This document shows, one piece after another, positions 4,930 to 60,285 of a stretch of 64,000 nt of DNA. Origin of the DNA: Candidatus Nitrosopumilus sp. (GTDB taxonomy: Archaea; Thermoproteota; Nitrososphaeria; Nitrososphaerales; Nitrosopumilaceae); assembly GCA_029263475.1 (NCBI GenBank), contig JAJCXK010000019.1, positions 1 to 64,000 on the forward strand, read 5' to 3'. The notes beneath the pieces are model-generated. The model was not told the DNA's origin. It worked only from the letters and a program-made list of their open reading frames with translations, and did no database searches. Within the stretch, counting starts at the first letter, position 1; the number at the start of each line of letters is the position of its first letter. The translations under genes were made by a program, and so were the position numbers.

Positions 4930-4999
4930 TTTTAGATAAATTTCAAGAGTCAAATTAAAATAAAAAGTTCATTAAGGGAACCAAAGTGCTCGATTTAGC

Positions 5000-55832: not shown

Positions 55833-56027
55833 CTAATGCATAATGGGTTCTTTTGAATAAAACAATCCAGCGATAAAAAATATCACTCCCAATATTCCAA
55901 TGGTACTTCCCACTAGTTCTACCTGATTTTGTAAATCTCCTCCCATTGGAGCCCATAACCATGCCATTAAAGCCCCAACCATAATCATTGGAATACCCAC
56001 TGCTACAGTTATTGCTTTAGATGCCAT
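55833..56027 (-). CDS. Small membrane protein, two helices
   Basis: 64 residues from ATG 56027 (a TTG two codons upstream is also possible). Two membrane segments: AITVAVGIPMIMVGALMAWLW and VGSTIGILGVIFFIAGLFY. Unknown function; close downstream of the secreted coiled-coil gene and possibly in the same operon. Confidence 0.65.
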   Translation of the reverse strand: MASKAITVAVGIPMIMVGALMAWLWAPMGGDLQNQVELVGSTIGILGVIFFIAGLFYSKEPIMH

Positions 56028-56063
56028 GTTCAAATTTCTTAGAAAATGTATATGAAGCTTATG

Positions 56064-56873
56064 TTATTCCACGGTTGATATTTTCATTATTTTCATTATT
56101 TTATTCAATTCTCCAAATTTTTCCTTTGCAGCAGGAATATTATCTTCAGAGATCAAGGCTTCAATCTCTGCAACTAGAGAAATGGCAATTGCAAACTCAG
56201 GAATACTTGTATCTAATGATGGATCATTCAGCATTTTTTGAATTTTTTCTAGCTGTTTTAAAGCAAATACAGTAATTCTATCAGATGCAGAACCGGATGA
56301 ATGTTCACGAATTTTCTGATTCTTTATATGAACAAGAGATTCTAGTTGGTGAAGAGTTTCAATAGCCTCGTCCATCGTATCTGAATCAATTTGTTGACGT
56401 GCTAGAGCAAATAATCGTTCAATTTCAGAAAAATCAATTCCTGTATTATGTTTTTGAGATATTGATTTTAAACTCTGGAAATATTTGTGTAATCTATTAA
56501 GTTCACTATTTAGATCTCTATCAGAAGATGTAGTCAGTTTTGCTTTAGATACAGGCTCGGATATGACACTGGTAATTTGCCTAAATGATTTCATCGCAAT
56601 AAGAAAATCTTCTTTTGCTTGTTCTACATCATTGGGCAGAGAACTTTTCAGTGATTCTACCGCTGCATGTCCTTTCTCATACAGTGTTTGTATATCAGAA
56701 GGTACGGAATCACCATAAGAATTTTCTAATTGGTTTAAGATTTCTGTGTCTGCTTGTGTGGCAATACGTAATAGAACATTAGAATTATTTTGTGCATATA
56801 CATCACTAACTAATGATGTTGACGCCGTTCCGAAAATTAATACAAACATTGTAAATAATGCTAATGTTTTCAT
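56064..56873 (-). CDS. Secreted helical/coiled-coil protein
   Basis: 269 residues. A signal peptide (MKTLALFTMFVLIFGTASTSLV...YAQ) is followed by a nearly all-helical body rich in Gln, Glu and Ser, with heptad-like patterns (LEIRYA-type repeats such as SELNRLHKYFQSLKSI and ALIS-type ends). No family motif. ATG 56873 overlaps the upstream membrane winged-helix gene by 4 bases, so it is translationally coupled to it. Likely binds or lines the cell exterior; a periplasmic-space-like partner of the sensor is inferred. Confidence 0.75.
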   Translation of the reverse strand: MKTLALFTMFVLIFGTASTSLVSDVYAQNNSNVLLRIATQADTEILNQLENSYGDSVPSDIQTLYEKGHAAVESLKSSLPNDVEQAKEDFLIAMKSFRQITSVISEPVSKAKLTTSSDRDLNSELNRLHKYFQSLKSISQKHNTGIDFSEIERLFALARQQIDSDTMDEAIETLHQLESLVHIKNQKIREHSSGSASDRITVFALKQLEKIQKMLNDPSLDTSIPEFAIAISLVAEIEALISEDNIPAAKEKFGELNKIMKIMKISTVE

Positions 56874-57904
56874 TCTTCTTCCTCTATGTCCTTTCGTATC
56901 TTTACTAGGTTTTGCAAGTCTTTCTTTTCAATTTCTATAATGCCGTTTCGTTCTAATCTCTTTACTGCACGCCACATGGTAGTTCTTGGTTGTAAGAATT
57001 TTTTACGCAAATCGCTTTCAAGAACTTGTCCTCCATTATTAGAAATAAACCTCACTATCTCTTTATCATCTTCACGAAGATCTGGTTTTATTTTGAAAAT
57101 GGCTTCAGTGTCAACGGCTTCAGTGTCAACGGCTTCAATTTTTTGCATTGTTTGTTGATTATGAACTGGTATGACGGTTTTTCGTTTTATACGAATGATT
57201 GCCACCACTCCTACAATTGCAGTTACTGTAATTCCACCAATAATTGAATATGTGAAATAATTAGACTGAGGTACAGGATCAACTGAAATTATGGGATCAG
57301 GAATAATTGACGCTGCACCAAAAAGATAATTTATTTCAGCCTCGCCAGAAGATAGGGTTAATTGGTTTTGATCACGAATTATTTCCATATTAATTGGAAG
57401 GTTTGTCATACCAACTATTGCAGAATTTTTTGGTAAGAATAATGTAAAATCAGAGGGAGCATCTAAAGAGAATGTCCAAACCCGACCTTGTTTGGATACC
57501 AAGTCATGAATATCATATTCTACGATAATAACAGATGACCCAAAAGTTTCGATTAAGGCAAAATTACCTAAGACATCAGTAGTGAGTAAAAATCCATTTT
57601 CATTTACAACGACAAGGTTATCGATGGTACTTCCAAACAGATCAAGCTCAAAATCAGCAGTAAGTGGATCTACATCAATTTCTGCAGAAACGTGGGTAGA
57701 TCCATCTGGATATATTATTAGATCTAGGGCCCTAGGAGAACTGAATGAGGACTGAATTGGCACGACAGCTGCTACAATAATCAAACTAGCTACCAAAAGA
57801 GGTATTTTGGCCATTGTATCAGGGATAGCTTCAGTCCTTACAAAAAGCATTCCATCTTCTCGAAGAGACTCTTTTCCATACATTGACATGATTTCAGGGT
57901 TCAT
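56870..57904 (-). CDS. Membrane protein with extracytoplasmic domain and cytoplasmic winged-helix domain
   Basis: 344 residues from ATG 57904; an in-frame ATG at 57814 would start directly at the hydrophobic segment AKIPLLVASLIIVAAVV and may be the real start. After this segment comes a beta-rich outside domain (about 60-215), then a membrane segment YFTYSIIGGITVTAIVGVVAIIRIKRK. A linker with tandem EAVDT repeats leads to a winged-helix domain (EIVRFISNNGGQVLESDLRK and TTMWRAVKRLERNGIIEIEKK). The architecture suggests a one-component sensor that binds DNA from the membrane. It lies 4 bases after the soluble regulator gene. Confidence 0.8.
   Translation of the reverse strand: MNPEIMSMYGKESLREDGMLFVRTEAIPDTMAKIPLLVASLIIVAAVVPIQSSFSSPRALDLIIYPDGSTHVSAEIDVDPLTADFELDLFGSTIDNLVVVNENGFLLTTDVLGNFALIETFGSSVIIVEYDIHDLVSKQGRVWTFSLDAPSDFTLFLPKNSAIVGMTNLPINMEIIRDQNQLTLSSGEAEINYLFGAASIIPDPIISVDPVPQSNYFTYSIIGGITVTAIVGVVAIIRIKRKTVIPVHNQQTMQKIEAVDTEAVDTEAIFKIKPDLREDDKEIVRFISNNGGQVLESDLRKKFLQPRTTMWRAVKRLERNGIIEIEKKDLQNLVKIRKDIEEEE
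57101..57137. repeat. 15-base tandem repeat in the sensor linker
   Basis: GGCTTCAGTGTCAAC occurs twice (57101-57115, 57116-57130) with a partial third unit to 57137. On the minus strand it encodes repeated EAVDT in the linker between the membrane segment and the winged helix. In-frame units let linker length vary without breaking the protein. Confidence 0.88.
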
Positions 57905-57908
57905 TTAC

Positions 57909-58196
57909 TCAATACCTTAGATTCATGCTTTCTACAAGTCCCTGAAATCTTTTGAATTCCTGAAAGAACAAAATTCCTTTTTCGGTAATCAAAAAGACTC
58001 TATTCCTGTCATTTTTGATGGATTCGACTAAGCCAGCTTCTACCAGTTTCTCACACTTGTCTAGTACTGCATAGTGAGATAGGTTGGCTTTGCGAGAGAT
58101 TGCAGATATGATGACTCCACCACGACCGCCATCAGCAGTAACGTCTAAGATATCACCCATTATGCCCATTTCGGACCTGTATTGTTGTTTTGACAT
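57909..58196 (-). CDS. Winged-helix transcriptional regulator
   Basis: 95 residues from ATG 58196 (MSKQQYRSEMGIMGDIL); a longer in-frame reading to 58232 lies within the promoter. It has a DNA-binding winged helix: ISAISRKANLSHYAVLDKCEKLVEAGLVES, followed by a wing and FLITEKGILFFQEF, typical of small archaeal MarR/PadR-like or ArsR-like regulators. It starts a tight operon with the membrane winged-helix protein and the secreted helical protein. Operator-like GGAACG motifs sit just upstream of its start, so autoregulation is plausible. Confidence 0.85.
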   Translation of the reverse strand: MSKQQYRSEMGIMGDILDVTADGGRGGVIISAISRKANLSHYAVLDKCEKLVEAGLVESIKNDRNRVFLITEKGILFFQEFKRFQGLVESMNLRY

Positions 58197-58225
58197 GCTA
58201 TAGTGTATAACAATGTAGTTTATGA

Positions 58226-58275
58226 GGAACATTTTGAAACTTTATAGCGGAACGCATAGCGGAACAGGTCGTTCC
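58226..58275. promoter_or_regulatory. Operator-like cluster near the regulator promoter
   Basis: GGAAC occurs at 58226-58230, 58249-58253 and 58261-58265, with CGTTCC at 58270-58275. ATAGCGGAAC is repeated exactly at 58244-58253 and 58256-58265, a spacing of about one helical turn. The elements flank the regulator's TATA box, as an autoregulatory operator would. Confidence 0.6.
58241..58246 (-). promoter_or_regulatory. TATA box of the regulator operon
   Basis: On the minus strand the sequence reads CTATAAAG about 45 bases before ATG 58196. The predicted start of transcription is about 58218. Confidence 0.6.
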
Positions 58276-58449
58276 ATCAAAAAAATACCTCGTTTTTGAT
58301 GGTTTTAGAATGTTAGAGAAAATTAAAGAGAATAGTACCTGAAAAAGAATTTTAAAATAATTCATTTTTCTAAAAAAATCCTCTATTGACACGTTTTGTC
58401 CAAAATGGGTAAATTTCCTTAATTTGTTGTCAATTTTGACAAAATTTAG

Positions 58450-58457
58450 TATATAAA
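58450..58457 (+). promoter_or_regulatory. TATA box of the secreted-protein gene
   Basis: A perfect archaeal TATA box TATATAAA, 54 bases before ATG 58511, predicting a transcription start near 58482 and a leader of about 29 bases. Confidence 0.7.
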
Positions 58458-58482
58458 GAACAGGACGATTCCTATCCGTTCC
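58458..58482. promoter_or_regulatory. Operator-like element near the secreted-protein promoter
   Basis: GAACAGGACGATTCC (58458-58472) closely matches GAACAGGTCGTTCC at 58262-58275, and CGTTCC recurs at 58477-58482. The element lies between the TATA box and the predicted transcription start, where a bound protein would block RNA polymerase. Confidence 0.6.
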
Positions 58483-58510
58483 TAATCTATTATATTGGCA
58501 ATATCTTCAC

Positions 58511-59071
58511 ATGGTAAAATCTCAGATTAGAATGATTGGAGTGACGATGATACTCCTGATGCTCGGGGCTTCACCAATATCTGTAATCTATTCATTTGCT
58601 GAAAATGAGAAGAAACAGGAAGAAAAGAGAGAACTTAGAGTAATTCTTACAGAAAAAGTAGTTAATGGAAAATTAGAAGTCCGTCAATATACCCTTCCTG
58701 AAGAGGTCTCAGAAGGAGATCTGAAAAGAATGCTATCATTTGATGGCCAGTTATCATGGGCATACGTAAACTACAAGATGTATCAGTCAGGAATTGTCCT
58801 ATTTGATGGAAAAGCTTCAAAAATTGGTGAAAACCTATGGGGAATTTCGATTGAGGATGATTCCAATGTGAATTTAAGCTTCAAAATAGTGTTTTCTGGA
58901 AAAATGGGGGAAACAAATGAAGAAAATGAATTTGTAATTTCATTTATGAATTCCGTAATGAAAAATCCTGAAACTGTTCAAAATATCAGACTACTACAAA
59001 TTGGGGAATCTGTAATGAATCCAGAAAAAATAAATGGTTTAAATCAAGAATTCAGAAATTTACATCGGTGA
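58511..59071 (+). CDS. Secreted protein of unknown function, probable regulon member
   Basis: 186 residues with a signal peptide (IRMIGVTMILLMLGASPISVIYSFA) and a mixed alpha/beta mature part beginning ENEKKQEEKRELRVIL. The phrase QYTLPEEVSEGDLKRML is followed by hydrophobic strands (IVLFDGKASKIGENLWGISI). No family recognised. It is divergent from the winged-helix operon and carries the same operator-like motif, suggesting shared control. Confidence 0.75.
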   Translation: MVKSQIRMIGVTMILLMLGASPISVIYSFAENEKKQEEKRELRVILTEKVVNGKLEVRQYTLPEEVSEGDLKRMLSFDGQLSWAYVNYKMYQSGIVLFDGKASKIGENLWGISIEDDSNVNLSFKIVFSGKMGETNEENEFVISFMNSVMKNPETVQNIRLLQIGESVMNPEKINGLNQEFRNLHR

Positions 59072-59171: not shown

Positions 59172-59633
59172 ATGTTTGATAAAAATAAAAATCAAGAGGG
59201 TGGCGAGATGGTAGAAGAAAGAAATCAAGAAGATACAGAAAAAAGAACCATTTCAGAATCATCCAATCAAATTGGAATTGGTGAATTGATGGGGAAACGG
59301 GCAAAATTGGAAGAGGCCATAGATTATGTTGGTTTAATGATTAAAAATCTAAAAGACAAGAGAACATTACTTGAGAAAGATGTTGAAGAGGAAGCAGTTG
59401 ACATTAAAAATTTGAAAGAAAAGCTTCAAAAAGTCAGTGAATACATAGATGAAGAAAATCGAGGAATTGAAGAACTTGCCAATAAACGAAAGCAAGTGGA
59501 AAGCGAGGCAGACGAAGTAGGTTCAATTATCAACAACTTAAGAGAGAAACTTTCTGGGGTTGATAGAGTTATAGATGAAGAAGGCAGCAAAGTCAGAAAA
59601 ATAAAAGAATCTAGAGAGACCTTAAACGAGTAG
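59172..59633 (+). CDS. Coiled-coil protein beside the CdvB paralog
   Basis: Up to 153 residues, almost entirely charged helix with strong heptad character (LEKDVEEEAVDIKNLKEKLQ, NKRKQVESEADEVGSIINNL). A purine-rich GAGGGTGG precedes ATG 59208, which may be the real start (141 residues); ATG 59172 gives the longer form. No signal peptide. Convergent with the second CdvB paralog 10 bases away. Function unknown. Confidence 0.7.
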   Translation: MFDKNKNQEGGEMVEERNQEDTEKRTISESSNQIGIGELMGKRAKLEEAIDYVGLMIKNLKDKRTLLEKDVEEEAVDIKNLKEKLQKVSEYIDEENRGIEELANKRKQVESEADEVGSIINNLREKLSGVDRVIDEEGSKVRKIKESRETLNE

Positions 59634-59643
59634 AATTTTAGAA

Positions 59644-60285
59644 TTAAAGGAATTTGGCGGTTGTTGCTTGTTCACCATCTGAAGGAACAGAAGGAAACAT
59701 TTGACCTGCAGAACTTTCAGCAACAGCGGCAGCCTCTTTCAAGATACTTTCAGACTCTGAATTGGTTGTCTCGTTTATTCCAAACGCTGCATCTCCAGAG
59801 AAACTCTCTGTCATGAAACCACCAAGCATATCAGCCATTTGACCAATTTCCTGCTCTGCCCCAGGCATAATTTTTCCTAGTGATGACTTTAGATTTCTCA
59901 TTAGCCCCATGGTTGGCATTATTGCCACCACAGTATCTCCAAGATCACTGCATGTAGTTAATCGTAACTCAATTTGCTCTAATGATATTCTAGCACTACT
60001 CAAAATTTTTGAAACTTTTCTTACTTCAGCTAATTCATTTCCAAGAACTTTACTGGTTTGAATGTCATGTTTTTGGGTTGCATCAACAATTCTTTGGAAT
60101 AACTTAGCATCACGCTCTTGTAAACTCAAAAGCATAGTGTCTAATTTTTTAATTTGTAATTGTAACTTTTTAATCCCTTCATTTACCCTTGGCTTCAAAG
60201 CACCTTTAGGCTTAATTGTATCATTAATTTTTTCAGCAATACCAGGTTGTGGTTGTTTTGACCACTTTGTAGACAAACTAGGCAT
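59644..60285 (-). CDS. ESCRT-III-like cell division protein, second CdvB paralog
   Basis: 213 residues closely similar to the protein at 35259-35909 along its whole length: PKGALKPRV, LQLQIKKLDTMLLSLQERDAKLFQRIV, GNELAEVRKVSKILSSARISLEQIELRL, and the C-terminal ILKEAAAVAESSAGQMFPSVPS. A basic N-terminus suits membrane binding. Presumably forms part of the division machinery or a related membrane-remodelling filament. It is followed upstream by a 639-base gene-free region that must hold its promoter. Confidence 0.9.
   Translation of the reverse strand: MPSLSTKWSKQPQPGIAEKINDTIKPKGALKPRVNEGIKKLQLQIKKLDTMLLSLQERDAKLFQRIVDATQKHDIQTSKVLGNELAEVRKVSKILSSARISLEQIELRLTTCSDLGDTVVAIMPTMGLMRNLKSSLGKIMPGAEQEIGQMADMLGGFMTESFSGDAAFGINETTNSESESILKEAAAVAESSAGQMFPSVPSDGEQATTAKFL

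Follow-up and report, generated by a model that had tools for sequence, protein, structure and literature searches.

Three genes of the archaeon Candidatus Nitrosopumilus sp., encoding a soluble winged-helix protein, a membrane protein with a predicted winged helix of its own and a predicted secreted helical protein, form a tightly packed operon that is conserved across the Nitrosopumilaceae. In the joint reading that we favour, with a probability of roughly 0.6, the core of this system would be a membrane-tethered one-component regulator that works with a co-transcribed partner outside the cell and with a soluble winged-helix protein that regulates its own operon. The operon lies in the window, the whole 64,000-nucleotide stretch of DNA that was analysed (positions 1 to 64,000 of contig JAJCXK010000019.1, assembly GCA_029263475.1). 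All four open reading frames named in a preliminary description, three in the operon and one divergent from it, were found where that description had placed them (Table 1), and the packing of about 4 bases that it reported consists of a 4-bp gap between the soluble and membrane genes and a 4-bp overlap of the membrane gene stop with the ATG of the helical gene. The start of the soluble protein at 58196 (MSKQQYRS) is backed by conservation. Note that the assembly of the window is listed with 8% contamination; the same locus is present in clean genomes.

Table 1. Genes and putative regulatory elements of the locus (positions in the window).
Feature	Position	Strand	Basis and remarks
Soluble winged-helix gene (HTH_45, 95 aa)	57909..58196	-	Operon gene 1; Pfam, 36.4 bits
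Membrane winged-helix gene (344 aa)	56870..57904	-	Operon gene 2; AlphaFold2 model, Foldseek, hydropathy, DUF7343 matches of homologues
Helical gene, predicted secreted (269 aa)	56064..56873	-	Operon gene 3; hydrophobic, signal-like N-terminus (hydropathy); homologous partners in other families
Divergent gene, putatively secreted (186 aa)	58511..59071	+	Optional, likely output; present in 36/80 loci
Candidate TATA element CATAAACT	58217..58224	-	About 22-27 bp before the soluble gene ATG; assigned from position and conservation
GTTCC/GTTTC half-site array, likely operator beside the operon promoter	58226..58275 (half-sites 58226-58230, 58236-58240, 58249-58253, 58261-58265; inverted half-site 58271-58275)	-	Conserved in 74 upstream regions and in other genera
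TATA box followed directly by GAAC/ATTCC/GTTCC half-sites, likely promoter and operator of the divergent gene	58450..58482	+	Conserved in 35 sequences

The membrane protein was modelled with AlphaFold2 from 36 sequences. From the N-terminus, the model has a hydrophobic helix (residues 30-47), an outside beta-sandwich (57-195, pLDDT mostly >90), a transmembrane helix (217-239, with the hydropathy peak at 221-239), a disordered linker of low confidence and a winged helix at the C-terminus (about 266-336, pLDDT mostly >90). The prediction agrees with the preliminary description, which had proposed an outside domain and a C-terminal winged helix; whether the C-terminal domain folds in this way had been singled out for checking, and it is predicted to do so. 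The positive stretch RIKRK, which follows the transmembrane helix, is consistent with a cytoplasmic location of the winged helix. This domain is the best conserved part of the protein (79% in the genus, 42% in the order), and the region of its recognition helix keeps the pattern P-[RK]-T-[TS]-x-W-R throughout the order; the ectodomain comes second (68% and 29%), while the linkers vary freely. A Foldseek search with the ectodomain returned the N-terminal beta domain of M1 aminopeptidases and Ost1/ribophorin I (E 2e-6 to 5e-4), a resemblance of predicted fold that implies no activity. The membrane protein was found in 146 of 200 genomes of the class, spread over 38 of 56 genera. At L065:5383-6279, and at similar places in most genomes of the genus, a 298-aa protein is encoded that has a C-terminal anchor (VPEF...) and a distant version of the ectodomain but lacks the winged helix.

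Among known families, DUF7343 (PF24034) comes closest to the winged helix: it is matched by 27 of the 36 membrane protein homologues (best 3.8e-7), and relatives in G038 and G039 pass its cut-off, whereas the window protein itself stays below it (15.2 vs 27.6 bits). Sub-threshold matches to MarR_2, HTH_24 and DUF7343 occur in most homologues. The soluble protein passes the Pfam cut-off of HTH_45 (PF14947; 36.4 vs 25.5 bits), which bears out its earlier description as a soluble winged-helix regulator. It is thus akin to HTH_45/Sso10a-type winged-helix proteins, but it falls below the NCBIfam cut-off for the Sso10a chromatin protein (NF053610; 33.7 vs 60 bits) and is encoded next to a membrane regulator in an operon that has a conserved putative operator; its score against ArnR (NF041016) was 19.3 bits, below the required 400. 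The membrane, helical and divergent proteins of the window gave no family above cut-off in Pfam or NCBIfam.

In ToxR-ToxS and TcpP-TcpH, a regulator is accompanied by a co-transcribed extracytoplasmic partner, and the membrane protein, with its co-transcribed and putatively extracytoplasmic neighbour, resembles these pairs. Such transmembrane transcription regulators, which include ToxR, CadC and TcpP, are defined by a predicted transmembrane region and a DNA-binding domain (PMC10269533). At least one transmembrane region and a DNA-binding domain are both predicted in the membrane protein, so that as modelled it fits this definition. It differs from those regulators in its C-terminal, archaeal DUF7343-like winged helix and beta-sandwich ectodomain, and in the additional soluble winged-helix gene of the same operon, with a putative operator of its own. 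ArnR and ArnR1 of Sulfolobus are likewise archaeal membrane-bound one-component regulators, as is predicted here, with inverted repeats as promoter elements (GC-containing, with a 5-bp spacer); they carry an N-terminal HTH, a HAMP domain, a sensor domain and two C-terminal transmembrane segments (PMC6396743). The domain order of the membrane protein is the reverse and a secreted partner is present; an identity with ArnR was rejected because the HTH is C-terminal in the AlphaFold2 model. CsmR of Haloferax has been reported in Nitrosopumilaceae too, but the module was not filed under it because its authors assign CsmR to Lrp/AsnC (PMC13286277). Our literature search found no paper on these genes and no description of this gene combination. 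The earlier statement that no named family covers the combination can be kept for the combination within the literature searched, but not for its parts, which are of known kinds (HTH_45, and transmembrane transcription regulators with a DUF7343-like winged helix).

Genome searches within the genus gave identities of 86-98% for the soluble protein in most genomes, 44-81% for the membrane protein and 32-81% for the more variable helical protein; the divergent protein was detected in 19 of 61 genomes. We then compared 80 named loci from Nitrosopumilus, Nitrosarchaeum, Marine Group I and others. The soluble gene adjoins the membrane gene in 78 of them, the remaining two being cut by a contig end, and the helical gene is present in 68-71, according to the query used. 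Inside the genus this gene order is weak evidence, because the whole region is syntenic, flanked by QueE/FolE/QueC at one end and at the opposite end by a coiled-coil gene together with a CdvB paralogue. More telling is the spacing in 19 further Nitrosopumilaceae loci, mostly from other genera: the gap between the soluble and membrane genes is 2-4 bp in 15 and 46-86 bp in 3 (in L198, one of the 19, the soluble gene was taken from the DNA and not from the ORF list), and the membrane and helical genes mostly overlap by 4 bp. The claim that gene order is conserved in relatives thus holds both within the genus and for further genera of the family. The divergent gene is present in only 36 of the 80 loci and is therefore not a core part, so that the four-gene module first proposed is reduced to a conserved three-gene operon with an optional neighbour, and not one fixed unit.

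The operon genes also go missing together. In seven genomes of the genus without an orthologous membrane gene, several of them incomplete, matches to the soluble protein were distant (about 36% or less) or lacking and the helical gene was not found. Four genomes without the membrane gene retain a 66-aa gene and QueE, with no module between these and the neighbours examined. The 66-aa protein, which has two hydrophobic stretches and is encoded directly downstream of the operon (55833-56033), shows 64-94% conservation and persists in genomes that have lost the module. On the other flank, the coiled-coil gene (59172-59633; product predicted cytoplasmic) lies tail-to-tail with the CdvB (ESCRT-III) paralogue (59644-60285), presumably of the Nmar_0029 group (PMC3684127), in nearly all loci of the genus; the region upstream of the coiled-coil gene is conserved and has no GTTCC sites.

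Upstream of the operon, 74 aligned regions share the block TGAAAC-N4/5-GTTCCGCTTTGCGTTCCGCTATGAAGTTTCAAAATGTTCCTCATAAAC, which ends about 20 nt 5' of the ATG. GTTCC/GGAAC averages 2.35 copies per 115 bp in these promoters, compared with 0.14 in dinucleotide shuffles, and 173 of the 174 copies have the same orientation. The position of the candidate TATA element would fit a leaderless transcript. Other genera retain the block, among them GC-rich L198 and those whose soluble protein is 70-80% identical; it is more degenerate at about 60% identity (L194, L206 and L207), where the first inverted pair is kept. Outside the Nitrosopumilaceae, 20 membrane genes with no adjoining soluble gene were examined, and 15 of them have no GTTCC/GGAAC in the upstream region. 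The sites mostly track the soluble HTH_45 protein rather than the membrane protein, from which we infer that the soluble protein is their putative binder. L186 alone among the 20 has more than one GTTCC/GGAAC, including a clean GGAAC-N4-GTTCC palindrome about 110 bp upstream of position 4984, and no soluble winged-helix gene adjoins it.

The motif that the preliminary description saw in both the operon and the divergent promoter is real, being conserved in the 74 operon promoters and in 35 sequences of the divergent promoter, where TATATAAGGAACAGGATGATTCCTCGCCGTTCCTAATCTAT is retained. The distal upstream region has no GTTCC/GGAAC in 31 of the 39 loci without an alignable divergent gene. Because loci without the divergent gene mostly lack GTTCC-type sites as well, the comparison supports its co-regulation with the operon, as had been suggested, and the divergent secreted protein is likely an output. 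Its structure prediction reached a pLDDT of 33, too low for a fold to be assigned. In G010 (L060:7560-7964), stop codons interrupt the pseudogene-like homologue of this gene, while the operon beside it is intact. In pattern searches for the TATA-plus-half-site arrangement (12 genomes) and for palindromes (14 genomes), no promoter site recurred beyond this locus, the former being recurrent here only. Among 20 other matches inspected, 19 lie inside genes and one overlaps a gene end; the non-recurrent single matches were only partly inspected. Recurrent palindromes such as TGGAACATTTAGTTCCA were rejected as operators because they sit inside coding genes. Within the patterns searched, the regulon looks local.

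The membrane gene has a helical neighbour in other families of the class too. A putatively secreted helical-repeat gene follows it on the same strand in L046, L047, L050, L051, L053, L055 and L057, with a paralogue in L203, and in L183 and L185 a match lies upstream. In hhalign, the genus helical family aligned with seven partners from other families at 97.4% probability (E 1.5e-11, 224 columns), compared with 0.1% for a conserved coiled-coil family as control. A profile from the genus helical sequences alone matched 24 of 672 neighbourhood ORFs at E <1; all 24 adjoin a membrane gene and 7 of them lie outside the Nitrosopumilaceae (L050 marginally, E 0.018). In several families, no helical partner was found next to the membrane gene among the neighbourhood ORFs examined, and in some lineages an unrelated, putatively secreted 116-aa protein occupies the helical slot. 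L049, L050, L051 and L054 carry fused helical repeats between the ectodomain and the transmembrane helix. The similarity of these repeats is moderate to the secreted partners (59%, E 9e-5) and weak to the genus helical protein (3%), suggestive of kinship with the secreted helical protein and too weak for us to accept them as proven homologues. In L053 (3076-4680) and L055 (5649-7271), the helical partner carries a C-terminal matrixin-type (M10) metalloprotease domain.

In the favoured reading, the outside beta-sandwich and the secreted helical protein, through a contact that we infer, would read some state of the cell surface, which the single transmembrane helix would relay to the cytoplasmic winged helix. 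In the Nitrosopumilaceae, the soluble HTH_45 protein would have been added at the head of the operon, binding the GTTCC array beside its own promoter and so regulating itself. It would also bind the half-sites of the divergent gene, most likely as a repressor, since these sit just downstream of the TATA box. The membrane protein may tune this regulation by binding and releasing the soluble protein, or may act on DNA itself. We favour this reading because of the tight operon spacing throughout the family, the predicted fold, the conserved array, the sites that track the divergent gene, the helical partner that is homologous and adjacent in other families, and the joint absence of the genes. It is weakened by the L186 palindrome, which without an adjoining soluble gene would fit binding by the membrane protein, and by the wide synteny in the genus, the 116-aa protein in the helical slot and the families without an adjacent partner. 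From the original envelope-signal interpretation, the gene order, the winged helix and the co-regulation of the divergent gene survive; the fixed four-gene module does not, and the action of both winged-helix proteins on shared sites is not supported.

That last idea deserves a fuller hearing: both winged-helix proteins could bind the same GTTCC array, competing or as mixed dimers, with the membrane protein holding the locus at the membrane. At least four half-sites in one promoter leave room for more than one dimer, and the L186 palindrome would fit it. However, most membrane genes outside the family have no such sites upstream, despite the order-wide conservation of the recognition helix, and we consider shared binding unlikely. 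Alternatively, a surface signal could trigger cleavage of the membrane protein by a site-2 (M50) protease, the freed winged helix then acting on DNA elsewhere. The disordered linker between the transmembrane helix and the winged helix is compatible with such cleavage, as are the metalloprotease domain joined to the helical partners of L053 and L055 and an M50 protease with a PDZ domain that is the convergent neighbour of the membrane gene in L048 (4193-5407). M50 proteases occur in 25 of 25 genomes searched, but they are universal, being found in 14 of 14 control genomes as well; none is encoded in this operon, and L048 is a single Pfam-checked case, which makes regulated proteolysis very improbable in our view.

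The array might also serve a simple autoregulated soluble repressor that is merely syntenic with an unrelated membrane protein. The synteny of the whole region in the genus and the membrane genes of other families without a soluble gene would be expected under this explanation; the gaps of 2-4 bp and overlaps of 4 bp retained in most Nitrosopumilaceae genera, the joint absence of the genes and the helical partner that adjoins the membrane gene in several further families speak against it, and we regard it as quite unlikely.

The recurrence of the tie between membrane regulator and secreted helical protein, seen in several of the class's families, hints at an archaeal design of wider reach. Tentatively, and with considerable doubt, one could imagine a class-wide system of surface sensing that pairs a membrane-tethered winged helix with a secreted co-sensor of helical repeats, which may be a separate protein, be fused to the regulator or carry a metalloprotease, a dedicated soluble relay and its operator being present throughout the Nitrosopumilaceae: an archaeal counterpart of ToxR-ToxS with a relay. 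The Nitrosopumilaceae are among the most abundant archaea of the ocean. The three-gene unit is a compact candidate for surface-to-DNA signalling whose likely operator is already located, and in marine ammonia-oxidizing archaea it looks like an unstudied route by which a signal could pass directly from the cell surface to a gene.
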